Source of the DNA: Tumebacillus algifaecis
Lineage (GTDB): Bacteria; Bacillota; Bacilli; Tumebacillales; Tumebacillaceae
Direction of reading: 5' to 3'
Assembly: GCF_002243515.1 (NCBI RefSeq)
Contig: NZ_CP022657.1
Coordinates: 3,767,501-3,831,500, forward strand
DNA: 64,000 bases
Shown here: one piece after another, positions 27,447 through 37,942 of the stretch
Layout: each line of letters opens with the position of its first letter
How positions within the stretch are numbered: the stretch's first letter is position 1
Notes under the pieces: generated by a model
Databases searched by the model: none
The model's input: only the letters and a program-made list of their open reading frames with translations
What the model was told of the DNA's origin: nothing
Program-made: the position numbers and the translations under genes

Positions 27447-28513
<1,067 letters not shown>

Positions 28514-28556
28514 ATCGACCAACTACAATTTCCACCCCTGAGAGGAGAACCATACA

Positions 28557-29570
28557 ATGAACAACCCTTCCATTCTCTACCTGAGCAAAGCTGACATCAT
28601 CTCCGTCGGCGGTGGCACTTCCGACCTGTACGTCAAAGCGCTGTCGAACGCCCTTGAACTGCACAGCAAAAAAGATATCGTCCAACCGCTCAAGCCCTAC
28701 CTGCGTGTCGATGAGAAAAACGGCCACATCGCCGACCGCATCATCGCGATGCCTGCCTATGTCGGCGGTGAAGCGCCGGTGTCGGGTATCAAATGGATCG
28801 GCTCGAAAGCGGACAATCCGCAAAAGCGCGGCATGGAACGCGCCTCTGCGCTGATCGTGCTCAACGATCCTGAGACCAACTACCCGATCGCCGTCATGGA
28901 AGGCAGTCTGATCTCCGGCATGCGCACCGCCGCGGTCACGGTGCTGGCCGCTCGCTATTTGGCGCGTGAAGGCTTCACCACCGTCGCTTGCATGGGTTCG
29001 GGCATCATCGCTAGCATGCAACTCCGTTCCCTGCTCGAACAGTTCCCGTCGATCACGACCATTCACCTTTTCGACCTCAACGAAGCGGCAGCCCACCGCC
29101 TCGCCGACACCTTGAAAGAGCAGCGCGAAGGTCTTGAGGTGATCGTGGCGACCGATGCGGAAAGCGCGGTGCGCCAAGGCGACCTCGTCGTCACCTGCAC
29201 CGTCACCGACAAGCCGTACATCCCGTTTGCTTGGTTGAAAAAGGGCGCGTTTGTCTCCAACATCTCGATCATGGACGTGGAAAAAGAAGTCTTCCTCAAA
29301 GCGGACAAAGTGGTCGTGGACGACTGGGATCAGTGCAACCGCGAGAAGAAGGTGATCAACCAGCTCGTGCTCGAAGGCACCTTCTCCCGCGAAAAGCTCC
29401 ACGCAGAACTAGGGGAAATTTTGACCGGAAGCAAGCCGGGTCGGGAAAATGAAGACGAGATCATTCTGCTCAACCCGATGGGCCTCGCGATTGAAGACAT
29501 CGCTTCCGCTCATGAAGTGTACCAACGGGCCGTGTCTGAAAATGCAGGCACACGCCTGAACCTGTACTAG
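28557..29570 (+). CDS. sbnB: SbnB-like N-(2-amino-2-carboxyethyl)-L-glutamate dehydrogenase
   Basis: Ornithine cyclodeaminase/mu-crystallin family enzyme that oxidatively cleaves the SbnA product to L-2,3-diaminopropionate and 2-oxoglutarate with NAD. The product has 337 residues. Visible features are KWIGSKADNPQKRG near the substrate site, the Rossmann motif MGSGIIASMQLRSLL (about 141-155) and VVDDWDQCN. GAGAGGAG precedes the ATG. It follows sbnA by 43 bases and overlaps the region of the next start, so translation of the operon is close-coupled. Confidence 0.92.
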   Translation: MNNPSILYLSKADIISVGGGTSDLYVKALSNALELHSKKDIVQPLKPYLRVDEKNGHIADRIIAMPAYVGGEAPVSGIKWIGSKADNPQKRGMERASALIVLNDPETNYPIAVMEGSLISGMRTAAVTVLAARYLAREGFTTVACMGSGIIASMQLRSLLEQFPSITTIHLFDLNEAAAHRLADTLKEQREGLEVIVATDAESAVRQGDLVVTCTVTDKPYIPFAWLKKGAFVSNISIMDVEKEVFLKADKVVVDDWDQCNREKKVINQLVLEGTFSREKLHAELGEILTGSKPGRENEDEIILLNPMGLAIEDIASAHEVYQRAVSENAGTRLNLY

Positions 29571-29581
29571 AGGTGAACGCG

Positions 29582-31417
29582 ATGACCGATCAGCATCTGC
29601 ATCAGGCCAGTTCTGCAGCACAATCGGCTGCTGCTGAACGCCTGTTCAATACGTTTTTGCGAGAAACGGGCCAAGCGCCAACCGTCCTTTTGCCAGTCGA
29701 CCCCCGCTGTAAGGCGTTGCCAGCTGTAACACTGGAAACCCTGCAAGCGGACGGACACCTCTTCTGCCTTGAACTTCCCGCCACCAAGACGCGCCTGTAT
29801 GGTTCGCTCCGCTACTCCTCCTTGTTCGGGCATCACCGCTACGGCCAGCATTTTTGGATCGAAACGGCAGAGCGCTCCCTGCAACCGGCCGACGCTTTGC
29901 AAGTGGCCAATGCCATTCTGCTCGAAGTCGGACAGCGCGATCCAGACCCGTTGTCACGCAAGCACCGCACGGAAGCCTTGTCCGAGCAGGTGCAAAACTC
30001 GATTGAAAAAACGACTTTGTTCGTCCAGCACCACCTAAAGCACGGCGCCAAGCTGTGGGAGCTGACAGGTGGCGAACGAACCAAGCGCTCCGAAAGCGGG
30101 TTGGTGTTCGGACATCCGTTCCATCCGACCCCCAAAAGCTCGGAAGGATTCTCAGCGGAAGATTTGCCGCTCTATGCACCGGAACTGAATGCTTCCTTTG
30201 TGCTCAGTTACTTTGCGGCAGCGCCGGAGATCGTGCAGGAAGCATGGGTGGAAGGGACCGACATCGACCCGTTCCCAGCCGACCTGTTGGAAGAAGCGAA
30301 GCATCGCCTCTCGTCCGACCGTCAGCATTACAAATTGTTGCCTTGCCATCCATGGCAGGCCAAACATCTGCTGGGCTGGCCGGAAGTACAGGAACTGATC
30401 CAATGCGGGCAGTTGGTCTACCTCGGACCGCTCGGCGTGGCGGTGCACCCGACCTCATCGGTACGCACCGTCTGGTCGCCAGGTCTTGGTGTGTACATCA
30501 AACTCCCGATCAATGTCCGCATCACCAACTTCATCCGCGTCAATCCGCTCGATCAACTGCAGCGTACGCTCGATGCGGCGACCTACACCGAACGTTTGCG
30601 TCCGATGCCCTATGGAGGTTTTACCGTGCTCGCTGAAGCGGGGTATCGAACGCTCGTCCCACCAGGTCTGTCCGAAGCGGCAAAACATCGGCTGATCGAA
30701 AGCTTTGCTGTCATCTTCCGGCAAAATCCGGTTCGGATTGGGCAGGAGGAGGAACAGACGCCCGTCGTCGTCGCCTCGCTTTTGGAAACGCCGCCTGGCG
30801 AAGACGTGACAGCGTTGTACCGCTTTATCGAGCAGGCCGCACAAACGAGCCTTGAGCGGCTCGATGCCGCTTTTGTAAAAGCATGGCTGCATCGCTATAT
30901 CGGCATCTCCCTCCTGCCGTTGCTCGACCTATTTTTCCGCCACGGGTACAGCGCCGAAGCGCATGTGCAAAACTCGATGATCGCATTCGACCGAGGTTGG
31001 CCCTCCCATTTTTATGTCCGCGATTTAGAAGGCGTCTCCGTTTCGCGCGATCTGGGTGGGAGCGTTCTCCGAGCAGACAGCGCAGCGCTTTTCGATGACG
31101 AGCAGGCGTGGCACCGCTTCAAATACTACATTTTCGTCAATCACATCGGCCATCTGCTCCACACGTTGGCGCATGACACCGATGTCTCCGAACGCGAACT
31201 GTGGCAAGTCGTGGCAGAAGCGATTACCGCCCACAAAGGCTTTACTTCGGAACGTGCCACGCGTTGCTTGGAAGATCTGTTCCACACCGCGTTTCTCCCT
31301 GCGAAGGCCAACCTGATCTCGCGCTTCCAAGGGCGTGCCGAAACGCCGCTCTATGTGGATCTTCCCAACCCTCTGTACAGATCCGTTCACCAAGCCAAGG
31401 AGGGAGCGACCGCATGA
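29582..31417 (+). CDS. NIS siderophore synthetase (IucA/IucC family)
   Basis: ATP-dependent ligase that adenylates a carboxylate (usually citrate) and joins it to an amine. The product has 611 residues, usual length. The ATG at 29582 follows AGAGGTGA. Family features are GHPFHPTPKSSEGF (ATP/carboxylate loop, about 182-195), the LLPCHPWQ segment, SSVRTVW and KLPINVRITNFIR, and the C-terminal FhuF-like helical part with EAHVQNSMI. It is related to SbnC/SbnE/SbnF, but this locus has only one such gene, so it may act more than once or make a simpler product. The downstream gene overlaps it by four bases. Confidence 0.92.
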   Translation: MTDQHLHQASSAAQSAAAERLFNTFLRETGQAPTVLLPVDPRCKALPAVTLETLQADGHLFCLELPATKTRLYGSLRYSSLFGHHRYGQHFWIETAERSLQPADALQVANAILLEVGQRDPDPLSRKHRTEALSEQVQNSIEKTTLFVQHHLKHGAKLWELTGGERTKRSESGLVFGHPFHPTPKSSEGFSAEDLPLYAPELNASFVLSYFAAAPEIVQEAWVEGTDIDPFPADLLEEAKHRLSSDRQHYKLLPCHPWQAKHLLGWPEVQELIQCGQLVYLGPLGVAVHPTSSVRTVWSPGLGVYIKLPINVRITNFIRVNPLDQLQRTLDAATYTERLRPMPYGGFTVLAEAGYRTLVPPGLSEAAKHRLIESFAVIFRQNPVRIGQEEEQTPVVVASLLETPPGEDVTALYRFIEQAAQTSLERLDAAFVKAWLHRYIGISLLPLLDLFFRHGYSAEAHVQNSMIAFDRGWPSHFYVRDLEGVSVSRDLGGSVLRADSAALFDDEQAWHRFKYYIFVNHIGHLLHTLAHDTDVSERELWQVVAEAITAHKGFTSERATRCLEDLFHTAFLPAKANLISRFQGRAETPLYVDLPNPLYRSVHQAKEGATA

Positions 31418-32601
31418 AGAAGATCGTTGAGTATATCAATACTGCCAAACAGGAAAGCGACAAACCGTTCTGTGCCTTTCTGTACGACATGGAGCACCTG
31501 TGCACGCATGTGCAGGCCCGCGTACAATCGATGCCTGCCAACACGCGTTATTTCTATGCGATCAAAGCCAACTCCGAGCTGCCGATCTTAGCGGCGCTGG
31601 CACCGATCGTCGATGGCTTCGAGGTGGCATCGATCGGTGAGGTGCGCAAAGTCCGCTCCGTTTCGCCAGACATTCCGATCATTTTTGGCGGCCCTGGCAA
31701 ATCGGACGAAGAACTGATCGGAGCGCTTGAGCATCACGTGTCGCTGATCCATGTGGAAAGCCTACATGAACTGCGCCGCTTGAACGAACTGTGCGGCAAG
31801 CGCAACACGGTCATGCCGATCTTGTTGCGCGTCAACCTGCGCGGCCCCCTGCCGACCGCCACACTTGCGATGGGCGGGCGACCGACCCAGTTCGGCATCG
31901 ACGAAGGGCAGATTGCCGAGGCGATCCAACTGGCGAAAACTTTGCCGCACGTAAAGCTCGAAGGTTTCCATCTCCACTCGCTCTCCAACAACTTGCACGC
32001 GGCGGAGCACGTCAAATTGGTACAATACTACATCCAGCTCATCAAAGGGTGGGCGGCCGAATTTGAACTCACCCTCTCCACGCTCAATGCCGGCGGTGGG
32101 ATTGGCGTCAACTATGCCGATCTGAACGACCAGTTCGACTGGGAGCTTTTTGTCAGCGAATTGGGGCCGATGTTGGAAGCAGAACTGCCTGAGGGGCTGA
32201 CCGTGCTCTTCGAATGCGGGCGCTATAACACTGCGTCTTGCGGCTACTATGCTGTCGAAGTGCTGGACATCAAAGAAAACCACGGCAAAACGTATGCGAT
32301 CGTGCGCGGCGGCACCCAACATTTCCGCCTGCCCGTCTCGTGGCAACATAGCCATCCGTTTGTGGTGCTGCCCTCGGAGCGTTGGGACTACGCGTTCGAG
32401 CGCAAAGAAGTCAACAACATCCCGCTCACCGTCGTCGGGCAACTCTGCACGCCCAAAGACGTGCTGGCCAGCGACATCACCGTGCCCCACTTGCGCATCG
32501 GCGATGTGATCCTGTTCCTCTATGCGGGCGCATACGGATGGTCGATCTCACATCATGACTTCCTGAGCCATCCGCACCCGGATCATCTGTATTTGGAATA
32601 G
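31414..32601 (+). CDS. sbnH: SbnH-like type III PLP decarboxylase
   Basis: Alanine-racemase-fold decarboxylase related to diaminopimelate decarboxylase. In staphyloferrin B synthesis SbnH decarboxylates a citryl-diaminopropionate intermediate to the diaminoethane form. The product has 395 residues. PLP Lys51 is in YFYAIKANSE, and GFHLHSLSNN, LNAGGGIGVNY and FECGRYNTASCGYY carry the phosphate and substrate contacts, with Cys in the last motif. AAGGAGG lies nine bases before the ATG, which overlaps the synthetase stop (ATGA). Last gene of the operon; a terminator follows at 32654. Confidence 0.9.
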   Translation: MKKIVEYINTAKQESDKPFCAFLYDMEHLCTHVQARVQSMPANTRYFYAIKANSELPILAALAPIVDGFEVASIGEVRKVRSVSPDIPIIFGGPGKSDEELIGALEHHVSLIHVESLHELRRLNELCGKRNTVMPILLRVNLRGPLPTATLAMGGRPTQFGIDEGQIAEAIQLAKTLPHVKLEGFHLHSLSNNLHAAEHVKLVQYYIQLIKGWAAEFELTLSTLNAGGGIGVNYADLNDQFDWELFVSELGPMLEAELPEGLTVLFECGRYNTASCGYYAVEVLDIKENHGKTYAIVRGGTQHFRLPVSWQHSHPFVVLPSERWDYAFERKEVNNIPLTVVGQLCTPKDVLASDITVPHLRIGDVILFLYAGAYGWSISHHDFLSHPHPDHLYLE

Positions 32602-32694: not shown

Positions 32695-32759
32695 GATGCG
32701 TGTGGAGATGAAGGGCGGGGGAGTTGCTTAGCTATGGTCTGCTTTAAATGCGCTTTGCA

Positions 32760-33446
32760 TCGGGTCTGCCATTGTTACGTCGTTTGTCAGGTTTTTTTCC
32801 ACATGTTCCAACAGAACTTTCAGTCCCCTATATATCGGGTCTGTCATTGTTACAAACACAGTGAAAAGGATTCAGCATACCGATCGAGACTTTCAGTCCC
32901 CTACATAACGGGTCTGCCATTGTTACCTGCGGAGATTTTTACCGACTTCGTTGAATTCTTTTACTTTCAGTCCCCTATACAACGGGTCTGCCATTGTTAC
33001 TCGGCCTCAAAGCGCTGAAAAGGCTGTCCGCTTTTCACTTTCAGTCCCCTATCTTACGGGTCTGCCATTGTTACATTGAGTCGACATCAAAAGAACTGTA
33101 CTACGAGATCCACTTTCAGTCCCCTATATATCAGGTCTTCCATTGTTACAGTATTACACCTGCCGCGAAGCGTGGTTGCTCTTCACCTTTCAGTCCCCAA
33201 TCTAACGGGTCTGCCATTGTTACCTTCATGCGGGAGACAATGGAGTTTCGTTACTTTATCTTTCAGTCCCCTATACAACGGGTCTGCCATTGTTACGATA
33301 ACGGACACCAACTCGCCGCTACACAAGAACAATATCTTTCAGTCCCCTATACAACGGGTCTGCCATTGTTACTATGGGACACCGCGTTTACAAGATCGAC
33401 ACCGAGGAACTTTCAGTCCCCCATATATCGGGTCTGCCATTGTTAC
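32760..33446 (-). CRISPR. CRISPR array 1: nine 37-bp repeats plus one degenerate end repeat
   Basis: Repeats start at 32817, 32890, 32964, 33038, 33113, 33187, 33260, 33336 and 33410, each 37 bp. Spacers are 36-39 bp and unrelated to one another. On the minus (crRNA) strand each repeat is GTAACAATGGCAGACCCG, then a variable core, then GGGGACTGAAAG. The half-conserved repeat at 32760-32778 marks the distal end, so the leader is on the right, agreeing with the ACTGAAAG 3' end. The core of eight bases differs between repeats while the flanks are kept. No cas genes occur in the window. The ending resembles type I-B/III-like repeats, which is an inference only. Confidence 0.95.
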
Positions 33447-33521
33447 CGACCGAATCGGCCAACGATAAAACGAGGCATAGCAAGGCTTCTGGCGCTCTTT
33501 GATTCGGACTGCATCTTGCTT

Positions 33522-33607
33522 TTTTCGAGGATCGACTTTTTGCTTCAAAATAGGGGGTATCCTCGAAAAGATACCTTGTTGCTTTTATTGTTTCCTCCTA
33601 TAGTATA
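33522..33607 (-). promoter_or_regulatory. Leader of array 1: -10 box and conserved stem-loop
   Basis: Minus strand: TATACT (33602-33607), 32 bases later an 11-bp inverted repeat TTTTCGAGGAT...ATCCTCGAAAA (33522-33569), then 75 bases to the first repeat. The loop holds GCAAAAAGTCG, shared with array 2. The same three elements at the same distances occur before array 2, so this is the transcribed leader. Confidence 0.75.
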
Positions 33608-33766
33608 AGGTATTCTTTCCCTGGATAAAATAGCTAAGTTTATCTTGTAACCGCATCACGAGACTTTCGTACGGCCTTCGAAACCGATCAGTAAAGCGGG
33701 ATTTTAAAAATTGCGCTACAACTATCGAAAAATTTTTTCGTTACGCCAGATCAGTATGTACTCAAC

Positions 33767-33791
33767 AAAAAGACGACCAACAAAGGTCGCC
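33767..33791 (-). terminator. Terminator after the 126-residue gene
   Basis: Stem GGCGACC/GGTCGTC (one G-U pair) followed by TTTTT on the minus strand. Confidence 0.8.
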
Positions 33792-33802
33792 GTCGATGAT
33801 TC

Positions 33803-34183
33803 CTAACCGTCCAAACCTTCAAGATGCAACTTCGCATCTGTTTCCGTCCCCGCTTCGAACTCGTGCCCGCACCACATCCAATTTCCTTGTCGCGCCTTGC
33901 GCTTGTACAGATACCCCCAACTGCCATTGACGCCGACCATCGCGCCTGCTCTTTCCCATAAAACACCGTCAGCTAAGCCCGCTACGCCGAAAATTCTCTC
34001 TTCAAATTTGGACATGGCCTGATAAAAATTTTGTGCTTGCACTCGATGACCGCGAAAGTACCAACGATCCTGATCCTTCTTATGGATGAACAGGCAACCT
34101 GCTAACCTCCCGATCCTCACCTTCGTTCGAGAATAGCACTCCCAATTCAGTCTCTCATAAGGAGTCATCAGCTTTACTTTCAC
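33803..34183 (-). CDS. Hypothetical 126-residue protein coupled to an XRE-TPR regulator
   Basis: GTG start overlapping the stop of the regulator gene (GTGA). The product is soluble and very rich in Trp, Tyr and Arg (CYSRTKVRIGRLAGCLFIHK, RWYFRGHRVQAQNFYQ, NWMWCGHEFEAG). There is no signal peptide, unlike typical Rap/PlcR-system propeptides. The strict coupling suggests it is the partner or effector of the regulator. A terminator closes the two-gene unit. No family recognised; codon use is AT-richer than the siderophore genes. Confidence 0.75.
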   Translation of the reverse strand: MKVKLMTPYERLNWECYSRTKVRIGRLAGCLFIHKKDQDRWYFRGHRVQAQNFYQAMSKFEERIFGVAGLADGVLWERAGAMVGVNGSWGYLYKRKARQGNWMWCGHEFEAGTETDAKLHLEGLDG

Positions 34184-35463
34184 AACACAATCCCACGCTG
34201 GTCGAGTTGCTCGATCAGGTTCTGCTGAAATCGAACCATCCGTTCATATGCTTTTTGATGCTCTCCCTTCCTGTCCAAGTACTGGCACATTTGCCGATTC
34301 ACTTCGTCAAGCTCCGCCATCTTGCCGTGCTGCTCAAAAATCTTGATCGCGTTGGTCAGGTGTTTTTCTCCCTTCAACTCGTCATTGTGATGAAAATAGA
34401 CAAAGGAGAGAACACGGTGGACTTTCCCTATTATCGGATCAGTGTCTGAAAGCGCCATTCGAGCTTTTTCTGCGTATGCCCAGGCTTCGTCTAGTTCATT
34501 ATGTTCCAAGCAGATCATCGCTATGTCTGCCATGATGTCTCCAGCTTTAGATTTGTCCCCATCTCGCTCATACTGATCCGCTATGGATAACAGTTTTTGA
34601 ACGGACATCTTCCAATCGCTCGACGCACGTTGCAGCATGACCAAGCGATGTTGCATCGCGTGGCACTGTTGCCTGTTCGCTTGTTCCTCCAACAGCACTT
34701 TTGCCTTCATCGCATATTCTTCTGCTTGTTCATACTTCTTTTGCCGATCATAGAGCTCTGCCAAACGGATGTATGTCTTCCCTCGTTCTTCACCATTGCA
34801 CCGATTGAGTAACAATGCCTGCTCGTAATACTCGACCGCCTCCGAACCCTTCCCCATCCGCTCATGAAGGGTCGCGAACTGCATCAGAATCTTTGCTTGA
34901 AAATCTGCGTCAAGATCTTCAACTCTTTGTACTTCATCCCAAGCTCGGCTCGTATGAAAGAGTGAGATCGGATATTCATTTTTCAACAAAGCGACCTGCC
35001 CAAGAGCTAACATCACTTCAGCGAGCAAATGGTTGTTCCGTCCCGTGTTGCAAATTTGATAGAGCTGATTCAACACTTTTTCCGCTTCAAGAAGATTCCC
35101 CAACGCAATGTGGCATCGTGCAAATTCTATCTGCAAGTTCTCTTGTGGAATCCGATGCTGTGTGTGTTCTAATAGATCATGCAACAACGGCATGGCTGTT
35201 TGAAATTCCTTCGCTCGGACCATGCTCATCGCCAATTTGTATTTGCTGGAGTATTCGAGATCCAGATTCACCTCTTTTAAGAGTTGCTCAAGTGGAACTT
35301 CGAGGCGATTCGCAATCGCAACCAGCGTTTTATACGAGGGACGCGCCCGGTCACTTTCAATTTGCGAAATTAAAGATGGTGTGCATATGCCAGAAGCAAG
35401 CTCAATTTGAGTAGTACCTTTTTTCAGGCGAAGTTCACGAACTCTTTGACCGAGTGACATCAT
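34180..35463 (-). CDS. XRE-TPR regulator, RNPP/PlcR-like architecture
   Basis: The product has 427 residues. The ATG at 35463 lies nine bases after GGAAAGG; another ATG three codons earlier is too close to the site. The N-terminal helix-turn-helix (about 5-65) reads RVRELRLKKGTTQIELASGI and SLISQIESDRARPSYKTL. The remaining ~350 residues are helical tetratricopeptide repeats (for example ALGQVALLKNEYPISLFHTS, YEQALLLNRCNGEERGKTYI). This layout matches intracellular peptide-sensing regulators such as PlcR, NprR and AimR. No exported propeptide is adjacent; instead a 126-residue protein overlaps its end. It is flanked by the two CRISPR arrays. Confidence 0.88.
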   Translation of the reverse strand: MMSLGQRVRELRLKKGTTQIELASGICTPSLISQIESDRARPSYKTLVAIANRLEVPLEQLLKEVNLDLEYSSKYKLAMSMVRAKEFQTAMPLLHDLLEHTQHRIPQENLQIEFARCHIALGNLLEAEKVLNQLYQICNTGRNNHLLAEVMLALGQVALLKNEYPISLFHTSRAWDEVQRVEDLDADFQAKILMQFATLHERMGKGSEAVEYYEQALLLNRCNGEERGKTYIRLAELYDRQKKYEQAEEYAMKAKVLLEEQANRQQCHAMQHRLVMLQRASSDWKMSVQKLLSIADQYERDGDKSKAGDIMADIAMICLEHNELDEAWAYAEKARMALSDTDPIIGKVHRVLSFVYFHHNDELKGEKHLTNAIKIFEQHGKMAELDEVNRQMCQYLDRKGEHQKAYERMVRFQQNLIEQLDQRGIVL

Positions 35464-35494
35464 TCCCATCATCCTTTCCAGAATTAAGTATCTA

Positions 35495-35522
35495 AGATTA
35501 GGATAATTGGGATGGATTGCAA
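35495..35522 (-). promoter_or_regulatory. Candidate promoter of the XRE-TPR/126-residue unit
   Basis: Minus strand TTGCAA (35517-35522), 16-base spacer, TAATCT (35495-35500), 30 bases before the start codon. Confidence 0.4.
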
Positions 35523-35590
35523 ATAATATATTTTAAATTAAGTGCCTTGCCATTGCGTAAAACGCCATATGTCAATTCGGAAAATGACAT

Positions 35591-35620
35591 AAAAACGCCC
35601 TCGCTAAAATTAACGAGGGG
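35591..35620 (-). terminator. Terminator of the receptor/propeptide unit
   Basis: Stem CCCTCG/CGAGGG with an AT-rich loop and CGTTTTT on the minus strand, eight bases after the propeptide stop. Confidence 0.88.
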
Positions 35621-35628
35621 TCGATTGT

Positions 35629-35754
35629 TTACCGATATGCGGCGATTCCAGGTTCAGGTGGAGAGGTTTGCGCTTGGTTGCTTACAGACAAACTGCCTGT
35701 AAGCAAGCTAAGAATGGCTGCAAACATCAATCCCGATAGTACCCATTTTCTCAC
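35629..35754 (-). CDS. 41-residue exported propeptide, putative signalling peptide of the TPR receptor
   Basis: GTG start that shares its first G with the TAG stop of the receptor gene (TAGTG), so it is translationally coupled. The product starts MRKWVLSGLMFAAILSLL, a basic N-terminus and hydrophobic core. It continues TGSLSVSNQAQTS and ends PPEPGIAAYR. This is the size and layout of Phr, PapR, NprX and AimP precursors, where a short C-terminal peptide is released outside, re-imported by the oligopeptide permease and bound by the TPR receptor. The mature signal is perhaps the last 5-8 residues. A strong terminator follows directly. Confidence 0.8.
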   Translation of the reverse strand: MRKWVLSGLMFAAILSLLTGSLSVSNQAQTSPPEPGIAAYR

Positions 35755-36941
35755 TAAAATCCCTCCTCATTTAGAAACTCACTTTTGGTACCAGAAAGCA
35801 TACGACTCTTTTCATAGTATCTTATCGCACTTTCTCCGTCATCTTTCAAAAAATAATATTCCATCAGTGATTTACAAGCGAGATAACGGAGCGTTTGGCT
35901 AATGTTCGGATTATTAATTACCGACTCTGCATAAGACGGATCATCTCTGACGACAGTTTGCATCACCTGTAAACGTCCCCAATATTCTGGATACTCCTGT
36001 GCAAGTGACTCGTATTCATTTAGAACTTGCATCGCCATGTCGTAATCACGAAGTTGCAGTAACGACTTAACATATTCTTTTACTGCAAGGATCAGTATAC
36101 CTTCAAACTCCTGCACTGTATTGATTGCTGAAACTAACAATCTGGCAGACGTTTTGTAATCACCCGCAATGTATTCATAATGCGCGACATTAATTAAGGC
36201 GTGTCCAATTTGTTTTTTGTCATTTGTCTGCTCAAAAAGTTCCAGTGAACGATACGCAAGTTTTTTTGCCTGTACCAACTCGCCGCGATCCTCGTACATT
36301 TTCATTCGAGTGTAATACGCCCGCCCAAGTTTATTTGGGTCATCAGAAAACACTTCTTCAACGAGTTTTAGCATCTCTTCGATCTGACTATATTCTTTAC
36401 GAATGGAGCTAGTTAACATCAAGTTCGAGGTAACAAGATACAGCAGTTGTTTATCATCAAATTCTGTTTCAACGCTTTTTGCATACTCGTAAGCAGTCAA
36501 CCATGTTTGGTGTGCTTCCTCGAATCTTTCTTGAACAAAAAGGACCCGGCCTAAAAGATTCAGGCTATTTCCTCTCTCCGTCATGCCTTTAGCAACTTCG
36601 ACCAACTCCATTGCAAGGGCATTCGCTCGAATCAACATCACTTTTGTTCTTTTTTTGCCAGTCAGAACTTTTACCAATTCTTGCTCTTTTTGAAAGGTAT
36701 CCTCCTGTTTCAAGCGTTCAGGGGACACGTTTAGCCCTTTCGAAATAAGTTCTAATTCCGAAGGAGCAATACGTCTCGTGCCAAGAAGCATTTGACGGAA
36801 TGTCTCGCGATTCATCCCAATTTTCTCCGCAAATGCACGAATGCTATACGCATCGCCTTTCTCGGTCATCAATTCTGAAATACGTCTCCCTAACTTGATT
36901 TTGGCAAGCGTCGAACTTGCCGTATATTCAACCGTAGACAT
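35754..36941 (-). CDS. TPR peptide receptor with N-terminal helix-turn-helix (RNPP-like)
   Basis: The product has 395 residues. The ATG follows AGGAGGG by seven bases. The N-terminal ~75 residues form an XRE-like DNA-binding domain (LGRRISELMTEKGDAYSIRA, IGMNRETFRQMLLGTRRIAP). The rest is tetratricopeptide helices with paired aromatic/Leu positions (GRAYYTRMKMYEDRGELVQA, GHALINVAHYEYIAGDYKTS). Size and layout fit the RNPP group (Rap, NprR, PlcR, PrgX, AimR). The overlapping propeptide gene downstream strongly supports a quorum-sensing pair. The gene is AT-richer than the genome average, suggesting horizontal origin. Regulated genes are unknown. Confidence 0.88.
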   Translation of the reverse strand: MSTVEYTASSTLAKIKLGRRISELMTEKGDAYSIRAFAEKIGMNRETFRQMLLGTRRIAPSELELISKGLNVSPERLKQEDTFQKEQELVKVLTGKKRTKVMLIRANALAMELVEVAKGMTERGNSLNLLGRVLFVQERFEEAHQTWLTAYEYAKSVETEFDDKQLLYLVTSNLMLTSSIRKEYSQIEEMLKLVEEVFSDDPNKLGRAYYTRMKMYEDRGELVQAKKLAYRSLELFEQTNDKKQIGHALINVAHYEYIAGDYKTSARLLVSAINTVQEFEGILILAVKEYVKSLLQLRDYDMAMQVLNEYESLAQEYPEYWGRLQVMQTVVRDDPSYAESVINNPNISQTLRYLACKSLMEYYFLKDDGESAIRYYEKSRMLSGTKSEFLNEEGF

Positions 36942-37010
36942 AAAAATGCCCTCCTATTACAAATAATCCAGTGTATATATAAAAAGTTCCTCACAGTTAT
37001 ACATTCGGTA

Positions 37011-37039
37011 ATTATATATAATAGTTATTCATTTGTACA
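37011..37039 (-). promoter_or_regulatory. Promoter of the receptor/propeptide unit
   Basis: Minus strand TGTACA (37034-37039), 17-base spacer, TATAAT (37011-37016). An inverted repeat ACAATTC/GAATTGT (37042-37048 with 37060-37066) lies just upstream and could bind a regulator, possibly the receptor itself. Confidence 0.55.
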
Positions 37040-37066
37040 CAACAATTCTAACTCTTGAGGAATTGT

Positions 37067-37436
37067 AGATGTGTAGAGTCTCTTCAGTTATTTTTTGTTA
37101 CTGCCCGCTTTGAATATAGATTTGCTAAGTATCAGACCTCAAGAGATGTAATTTCTGAAAGCACAAGTTTCCCCAAACAGATGTAGCAATCATAATCGGA
37201 GCAGGTGTAGCCTTTTGATTTTTCCCATGAAACTGAAATTTCGTTTGACATCGATTCGAGATCGACCCAGCATTCAATACTCCCTGTCGTTAGTTTGTGA
37301 TAGGAAGGAAACTTGGATTAAGAAATCGGAGATAGAGATACAAGTTGTCATTTTCATGTGGGTTTCTTCTAATCACGATGTCCGATTCTTATCACCCTTG
37401 AACGCGACCGTCAATCTAATCTGACCACTTAGAAAC
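37067..37436. other. Non-coding stretch between receptor promoter and array 2
   Basis: AT-rich with no supported gene. A 69-codon frame on the plus strand (37215-37424) has no ribosome site and poor composition, so I do not call it. Confidence 0.4.
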
Positions 37437-37469
37437 ACAAAAAAGAGGAGTGTCAAAAGACTACTCCCC
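37437..37469 (-). terminator. Terminator of the array 2 transcript
   Basis: On the minus strand GGAGTAGTC pairs with GACACTCC (one bulged A) around TTTT, followed by TCTTTTTT. It lies about 75 bases beyond the distal repeat. Confidence 0.7.
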
Positions 37470-37542
37470 CAATGACTTTTATCGCTCAATAACTTAATAG
37501 AAACATCTACACAGAGCTTATGCTTGAGTTGGCTGATTATCG

Positions 37543-37866
37543 CTATCGAACGGGTCTGCCATTGTTACAACCAGCTTCAACAACAACTAAACAACAGGAT
37601 CAGGCACTTTCAGTCCCCTATATATCGGGTCTGCCATTGTTACGGCCAAGATCATGCGGTCATTGCGATCAACGCCGGAGATTTTCAGTCCCCTATATGA
37701 CGGGTCTGCCATTGTTACATGATGATACATACAAAATGCCGATAACGATTACATCTTTCAGTCCCCTATATAACGGGTCTGCCATTGTTACTTCTGGGTT
37801 CAGCACTTGGGCAAGGGCTACCCACTGCCCTTTCAGTCCCCTATCTAACGGGTCTGCCATTGTTAC
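37543..37866 (-). CRISPR. CRISPR array 2: four 37-bp repeats plus one degenerate end repeat
   Basis: Repeats start at 37607, 37682, 37755 and 37830, with 36-38-bp unique spacers. The partial repeat at 37543-37568 marks the distal end. The repeat is the same family as array 1 (GTAACAATGGCAGACCCG, variable core, GGGGACTGAAAG on the minus strand), again with a different core in every copy. Orientation equals array 1, with the leader on the right. The spacers are not those of array 1. The array lies 4.1 kb from array 1 with only regulator genes between them. Confidence 0.94.
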
Positions 37867-37942
37867 CGACCTCGGCCGGGATAAGAAAACGCAGTCGTGG
37901 CGCGGCTTCACGAGACGTTGCGTCCCTGCTGGAAACTGCTTT

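Follow-up and report, generated by a model that had tools for sequence, protein, structure and literature searches.

The presumed receptor gene and the small gene that overlaps it

The window, a stretch of 64,000 nucleotides from Tumebacillus algifaecis, carries on its minus strand a gene for an HTH-TPR regulator (R1) and, overlapping its stop codon, a 41-codon gene for a propeptide-like product. They stand in a module with the order promoter, R1, propeptide, terminator, palindrome TGTCA(N10)TGACA, second regulator (R2) and small gene D. The features and the evidence for them are as follows.

37011..37039, minus strand: sigma-A-like promoter of R1 (TGTACA, 17 nt, TATAAT); TATAATT is conserved in 19/19 upstream regions in an alignment of 19 modules
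35754..36941, minus strand: R1, 395-aa HTH-TPR regulator, presumed pheromone receptor (translation, Pfam, structure model, fold matches)
35761..35768, minus strand: Shine-Dalgarno site GAGGAGGG of the propeptide gene, within the last R1 codons (homologue comparison)
35629..35754, minus strand: 41-codon propeptide gene with GTG start on the R1 stop; likely signal core QTSPPEPG (frame, homologues, controls, dN/dS)
35598..35619, minus strand: terminator-like hairpin 3' of the propeptide gene (sequence and fold; the stretch folds at -15.9 kcal/mol)
35570..35589, no strand assigned: palindrome TGTCA(N10)TGACA, presumed operator between propeptide and R2 (locus statistics)
34180..35472, minus strand: R2, 430-aa HTH-TPR regulator with a PlcR-like HTH (Pfam; PlcR HTH profile match, E 7.9e-14)
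33803..34183, minus strand: D, small gene after R2, 126 codons when counted from the overlapping GTG (no domain match)

R1 matches the Pfam family TPR_14 above cut-off and HTH_3 just below it (22.8 bits against a cut-off of 23, E 9.5e-5), and PHROG regulators match the same N-terminal part as HTH_3. In an AlphaFold2 model built from 27 sequences (mean pLDDT 90.6), an HTH region at the N-terminus leads into a superhelix of about eight TPR-like helix pairs. R1 shares in this way two traits of RRNPP(A) receptors, a TPR domain of five to nine repeats and the N-terminal HTH found in most subfamilies. Among bacterial folds, the model fits that of apo RapI best (Z 22.5, rmsd 3.7, 308 aligned), with apo NprR likewise among the best (Z 21.6, rmsd 4.2, 303 aligned). 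Because LGN, a eukaryotic TPR protein, scores above both (Z 23.9), the fold is to be read as TPR first of all. AimR is absent among the 50 fold matches listed, which carries no weight against an AimR-type fold. The sequence profiles of Rap and NprR are reached weakly from R1 (E 1e-4 to 1e-3, NprR about 1e-3), and NCBIfam and PHROG models gave HTH/TPR-type or weak matches only. The earlier note had found that the receptor does not look near to a named subfamily; none could be assigned in the analysis.

The small frame translates as VRKWVLSGLMFAAILSLLTGSLSVSNQAQTSPPEPGIAAYR and then a stop. Its GTG begins on the final base of the R1 TAG stop, so that the one-base overlap and the coordinates given in the earlier note are correct; the signal sequence which that note had read in the product is likewise called by a hydrophobicity rule (SignalP was not the basis of the calls). 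In 48 of 56 homologues a Shine-Dalgarno match of at least 5 nt stands before the start of the small gene, compared with 6.7% of control windows. In 10 of the 56 homologues R1 ends in EEGF, a region that is weak in the R1 model (block pLDDT 67 and 46). Since the last R1 codons also hold the Shine-Dalgarno site of the small gene and the model is uncertain there, this ending may be conserved for the small gene's sake. The small frame is open in four close copies, with dN/dS of 0.19-0.44 in five of six pairs (one pair undefined); R1 in the same four copies has dN/dS of 0.04-0.16 in five defined pairs.

Homologous pairs and their proline core

R1 matches were found at 8 places in its own genome and at 6 to 17 per genome in six others of its family, and one of 54 further genomes gave a single weak match. 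The seven R1-bearing genomes include Tumebacillus avium, T. permanentifrigoris, T. flagellatus and T. lacus; the window genome and T. avium fall into the same GTDB genus group. A search of 299 Bacilli genomes with the R1 profile at E 1e-12 had matches in 7 genomes from 2 of 118 genera, all in the window's own family and none outside it. Above this sequence threshold the R1 family is confined to that family in the genomes searched.

The counts below are based on 60 regions (L035-L094), in which 66 R1 frames reach a length of 300 aa or more. A signal-peptide-like frame adjoins the R1 stop in 56 of the 66 (seven genomes, one family) and starts at +2 or +3 from the first stop base in 39 of the 56. 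An adjacent small ORF with a secretion signal is a further RRNPP(A) trait, called here by the hydrophobicity rule only. The frame was retained at these 56 homologous loci, 52 with a shared motif, when losses or frameshifts in relatives were looked for, which the earlier note had named as the result that would speak against it. At loci of this kind (L095-L118), 89 genes served as controls; 2 of them have a signal-peptide-like downstream frame and none has the motif. Left out of the 66 were the own-genome tandem pair L004/L005, behind which no signal-peptide-like frame was seen, the fragments L006/L007, the weak L008/L015, a broken copy (G006:C60) and weak or short places (G006:C33, G006:C45, G005:C21, G002:C1 near 2091380 and G001:C1 near 1036571). 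A recognised propeptide is missing at 10 of the 66 frames, which counts against the reading as a pair; the ten are L075 (at a contig end), L069 (a broken neighbour copy), seven in the tandem clusters L089/L092, and L094. R1-like tandem clusters with no recognised propeptide are present at L089, L092 and G000 C1 2706512-2709159, and those at L089 and L092 terminate in an R2-type gene.

A chance frame would be in keeping with a length of only 41 codons and a GTG start. It was rejected on the dN/dS values, the conservation in homologues (56/66, 52 of the 56 with the core, against 2/89 and 0/89 in controls) and the Shine-Dalgarno enrichment, and we regard its probability as negligible.

The shared motif is a proline core, found in 52 of the 56 tails, with the fullest form A-[EQD]-[TW]-x-P-[PI]-x-P-x-G-I. 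The loose motif x-[PDGT]-[PIVLDE]-x-P matches these 52 tails and 28% of shuffled tails. Columns that played no part in anchoring the alignment are also conserved among the 52: A at -7 (47), E/Q/D at -6 (36), T or W at -5 (34), G at +2 (23) and I at +3 (28). The core is repeated in tandem in the propeptides of L067, L072, L074, L077, L079, L081 and L087, and a second propeptide behind L054 has four units of the kind W-x-D-P-D-P-S-G-V. In the own genome, repeat propeptides also lie beside the R2-type regulators L169, L171 and L174; the five tandem units of L171 are AFINGGEPLSPKF.

Because conservation and tandem repeats centre on the SPPEPG core, the signal of the window is probably centred on QTSPPEPG and not solely on the last 5-8 residues, and the IAAYR tail is perhaps part of it (the cleavage site is predicted). 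The earlier note had suggested modelling the receptor with C-terminal peptides of 5-8 residues; a signal made of the last 5-8 residues only is not favoured. C-terminal peptides of 5-8 residues alone may miss such a signal, which may be a longer C-terminal peptide containing the PxxP core.

R1 distances rise with those of the propeptide cores (rho 0.34 over 46 pairs with propeptides of at most 50 aa; 1 of 1000 permutations was as high). The signal part of the propeptide follows R1 about equally (rho 0.32), so the co-divergence is not specific to the core. An alternative is that R1 only regulates the gene of a secreted peptide that does not signal back to it, such as a small bacteriocin or membrane peptide; a secretion signal and a hydrophobic core would fit that as well. 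The tandem short cores, the co-divergence with an HTH-TPR receptor and the many copies per genome fit pheromones better, and we think this alternative quite improbable.

The palindrome and the second regulator

Among the 34 loci with an R1 score of 320 bits or more, 21 have the exact palindrome (spacer 9-11); none of the 32 other loci has it, and of 2792 control windows it occurs in 1. Its absence from 13 of the 34 and from all 32 others counts against the mechanism proposed below. The own genome has 20 exact palindromes, compared with 3 for a backward control. Three of the 20 lie in the three peptide-bearing R1 modules (in one of these, L046, R2 is a 91-aa fragment only) and one lies upstream of such a module. 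A regulon beyond the modules was rejected: 11 of the remaining 16 palindromes sit in open frames of at least 250 codons, and a wider regulon is thus not claimed.

An R2-type gene, in some cases a fragment only, starts within 700 nt downstream of R1 at 41 of the 66 frames, and at 32 of the 41 the distance is 250-344 nt. At the other 25 none was found within 700 nt, which also counts against the proposed mechanism. Before R2 at several loci (L040, L047, L051, L061) there is a hairpin CCACC...GGTGG followed by TTTATTGTGTTTATAGG.

The palindrome could be bound by R2 itself (autoregulation) or be merely part of the R2 promoter, with R1 acting elsewhere; its position is upstream of R2, and TTGACA is similar to a -35 box. 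However, the palindrome tracks one R1 clade, although R2 also follows R1 at many loci of the other clade. It also occurs at L045, with no R2 found there within 700 nt, and among the matches listed no exact palindrome lies upstream of the R1-less R2-D copies near G000 1295337 and 467369. On this evidence we consider binding by R2, or a promoter part, rather unlikely, and R1 the most likely protein to act there.

R2 might also be a receptor of the R1 peptide, an orphan in the sense that two regulators read one signal. No propeptide was found directly 3' of the module R2 in the window, yet R2 lies about 284 nt behind the propeptide of R1. Of 20 R2-type regulators inspected in the own genome, eight (L163, L164, L169, L171, L173, L174, L176 and L177) are themselves overlapped by a propeptide-like frame, and several of these frames have PxxP cores or tandem repeats. 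Against this, R2 distances do not track R1 distances (rho 0.002 over 35 modules in which both genes are near full length; 468 of 1000 permutations were as high). The R2 copies of a genome are also much alike though the peptides differ, which would be odd for peptide-specific receptors. We judge a second receptor for the same peptide to be unlikely.

D has no match in Pfam, NCBIfam or PHROG. It follows R2 in 6 of 60 regions and also follows the R1-less R2 copies L159, L160 and L162; near 467369 in the own genome, the receptor that precedes an R2-D unit belongs to another class and has a repeat propeptide (L174). At 8 of 24 named loci the downstream position of D is taken by a TPR gene of about 190 aa. 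An integrase-like gene recurs at 4 of 24 and two further genes at 3 of 24 each. These recurrent neighbours (D, the TPR gene, the integrase-like gene and the two others) were considered as targets, and none suggests a function. Genes of the tyrosine recombinase (phage integrase) family follow the modules at L095 (8516-9340), L115 (8514-9338) and L100 (8756-9517).

Taken together, R1 and the 41-aa peptide very probably form a pair of receptor and secreted pheromone of RRNPP-like type. This reading draws on the unanchored A, E/Q/D, T/W, G and I columns, the tandem repeats, the Shine-Dalgarno sites and dN/dS values, the R1-core co-divergence, the model and its folds, the palindrome statistics and six SBP_bac_5 oligopeptide-binding proteins encoded in the own genome. 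The earlier note had proposed a probable quorum-sensing pair of RNPP type, with which the overlapping start, the HTH-TPR receptor, the RapI/NprR folds and the conserved frame agree. The pair itself stood; it is not isolated, being one of many paralogous pairs and part of an R1-propeptide-R2 module.

In the mechanism that we propose, R1 and the propeptide would be translationally coupled and the propeptide presumably exported by Sec. Trimming at a predicted cleavage site would give a short proline-rich pheromone centred on QTSPPEPG; candidate fragments outside the cell would cover QTSPPEPGIAAYR. The peptide would re-enter through an oligopeptide permease and bind in the TPR groove of R1, whose HTH most likely acts at the palindrome that comes directly after the terminator of the propeptide gene (R1 as the binder is our supposition). 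R1 acting there would control R2 and D, with a sign of regulation that is conjectural, and R2 would relay the signal onward. To this R2 step alone we give slightly less than an even chance.

Mosaic loci and relation to known systems

R2 and R1 differ in how they vary within and between genomes. Mean R2 identity within a genome is 47% (g1, 28 pairs) and 65% (g2, 62 pairs), compared with 38% and 35% for R1, and between genera (286 pairs) it is 29% for R2 and 37% for R1. On quick trees, with long-branch warnings on the R2 tree, genus changes number 3 for R2 and 8 for R1 (the starred branches force 2 and 6).

Individual loci show the same pattern. In the T. permanentifrigoris pairs L100/L104 and L104/L116, about 400-450 nt upstream of R1 are 80-95% identical, R1 mostly 46-63%, propeptide plus spacer 38-57%, and R2 with the next gene 73-97%. 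In T. avium L095/L115, R1 is 39-57% and the R2 start 53-71% identical, followed by 93-100% through R2 and D into the integrase gene. The window and its own paralogue L043 form a mild mosaic (R1 0.50-0.65, R2 0.69-0.78); the values for the window and its T. avium orthologue L095 are 0.74-0.86 for R1 and 0.65-0.82 for R2. Nucleotide homology between these last two runs from 37084 to 33813 and then ends, so the surroundings of the module differ between them.

As R2 is alike within a genome while R1 and the propeptide vary, we regard the loci as mosaic. The pattern could have arisen by conversion of R2 genes, by the spread of a block containing R2 or by a swap of R1-propeptide cassettes, and the data choose none of these. 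Our tentative proposal, which we hold as possible and somewhat short of evenly probable, is that hypervariable R1-propeptide cassettes lie before a common R2, which recombination keeps uniform inside each genome, so that private signals lead to similar output, possibly with two regulators per peptide. Pherotype switching is known from agr and comQXP. If the cassette reading is true, these loci would be an intragenomic counterpart of it with a cytoplasmic receptor.

Carriage of R1 by phages or plasmids was looked for and gave no match in either, apart from one weak viral contig (L119). None of 12 inverted repeats in 33450-37530 brackets the module as terminal inverted repeats would. CRISPR-like repeat arrays flank the R1-propeptide-R2-D module at 32753-33460 and 37543-37880 of the window (about 10 and 5 units of about 37 nt, spacing 73-76, with a variable mid-repeat and a common 38-nt flank). 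Downstream of the module, the frames at 27509-32601 look by eye like a siderophore operon, perhaps of the staphyloferrin B kind.

In NprR-NprX the propeptide is encoded downstream of the receptor, as here. R1 shares with NprR the HTH, the TPR superhelix and the apo fold, with weak sequence similarity, and its propeptide core is, we presume, unlike NprX. The likeness to PlcR-PapR is that of R2, in its HTH and part of its fold (3u3w, Z 16.7, rmsd 12.4); unlike PlcR, R2, at 430 aa, exceeds a five-TPR receptor in its number of helices, and in the window it is not accompanied by its own propeptide. The likeness to Rap-Phr, whose receptors are of phosphatase or anti-activator type, is in the fold, RapI being the best bacterial match. 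Rap proteins are described in the main text of PMC12700828, which names neither Tumebacillus nor Alicyclobacillaceae, as lacking a DNA-binding HTH, and R1 differs from them by its HTH region. Rap-Phr pairs are reported to multiply by duplication and divergence (PMC5199041).

The Alo system (AloR-AloP) of the Paenibacillaceae, as described in PMC7425212, also has an HTH-TPR receptor, a short secreted propeptide directly after it and many paralogous pairs per genome. There AloR controls the next gene (spo0E-like in Alo13), and a profile search found AloR essentially only in Paenibacillaceae. Compared by description, the modules here differ in their PxxP cores and in that R1 and propeptide are often followed by a further HTH-TPR regulator, with a palindrome between. 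RRNPP_detector predicts RRNPP pairs in complete genomes and gave 10 biosynthetic clusters with an adjacent RRNPP pair in Alicyclobacillaceae (PMC10075063, in the text examined), the family in which the NCBI taxonomy places Tumebacillus. The window pair may already be in its tables; the main text does not name Tumebacillus, and the R1-propeptide-R2 module, the palindrome and the mosaic were not met in the text examined. Among the matches listed in our literature searches there was no report on such systems for Tumebacillus. RRNPP systems already show the principle, and Alo systems show that one genome can have many paralogous pairs (PMC7425212); the R1-propeptide-palindrome-R2 module and its mosaic were not met in the literature searched, part of which was in excerpt.

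What the pairs add is a large group of probable peptide signals that is restricted to one lineage and can be recognised by a proline core; the tandem-repeat propeptides in it are a built-in guide to the mature signals. With dozens of pairs in the relatives, often before a second regulator, this would be a large and fast-changing set of private signals. Since receptor and pheromone change together while R2 is uniform within a genome, these loci would allow a direct test of how new pairings of signal and receptor come about and stay separate in one genome.
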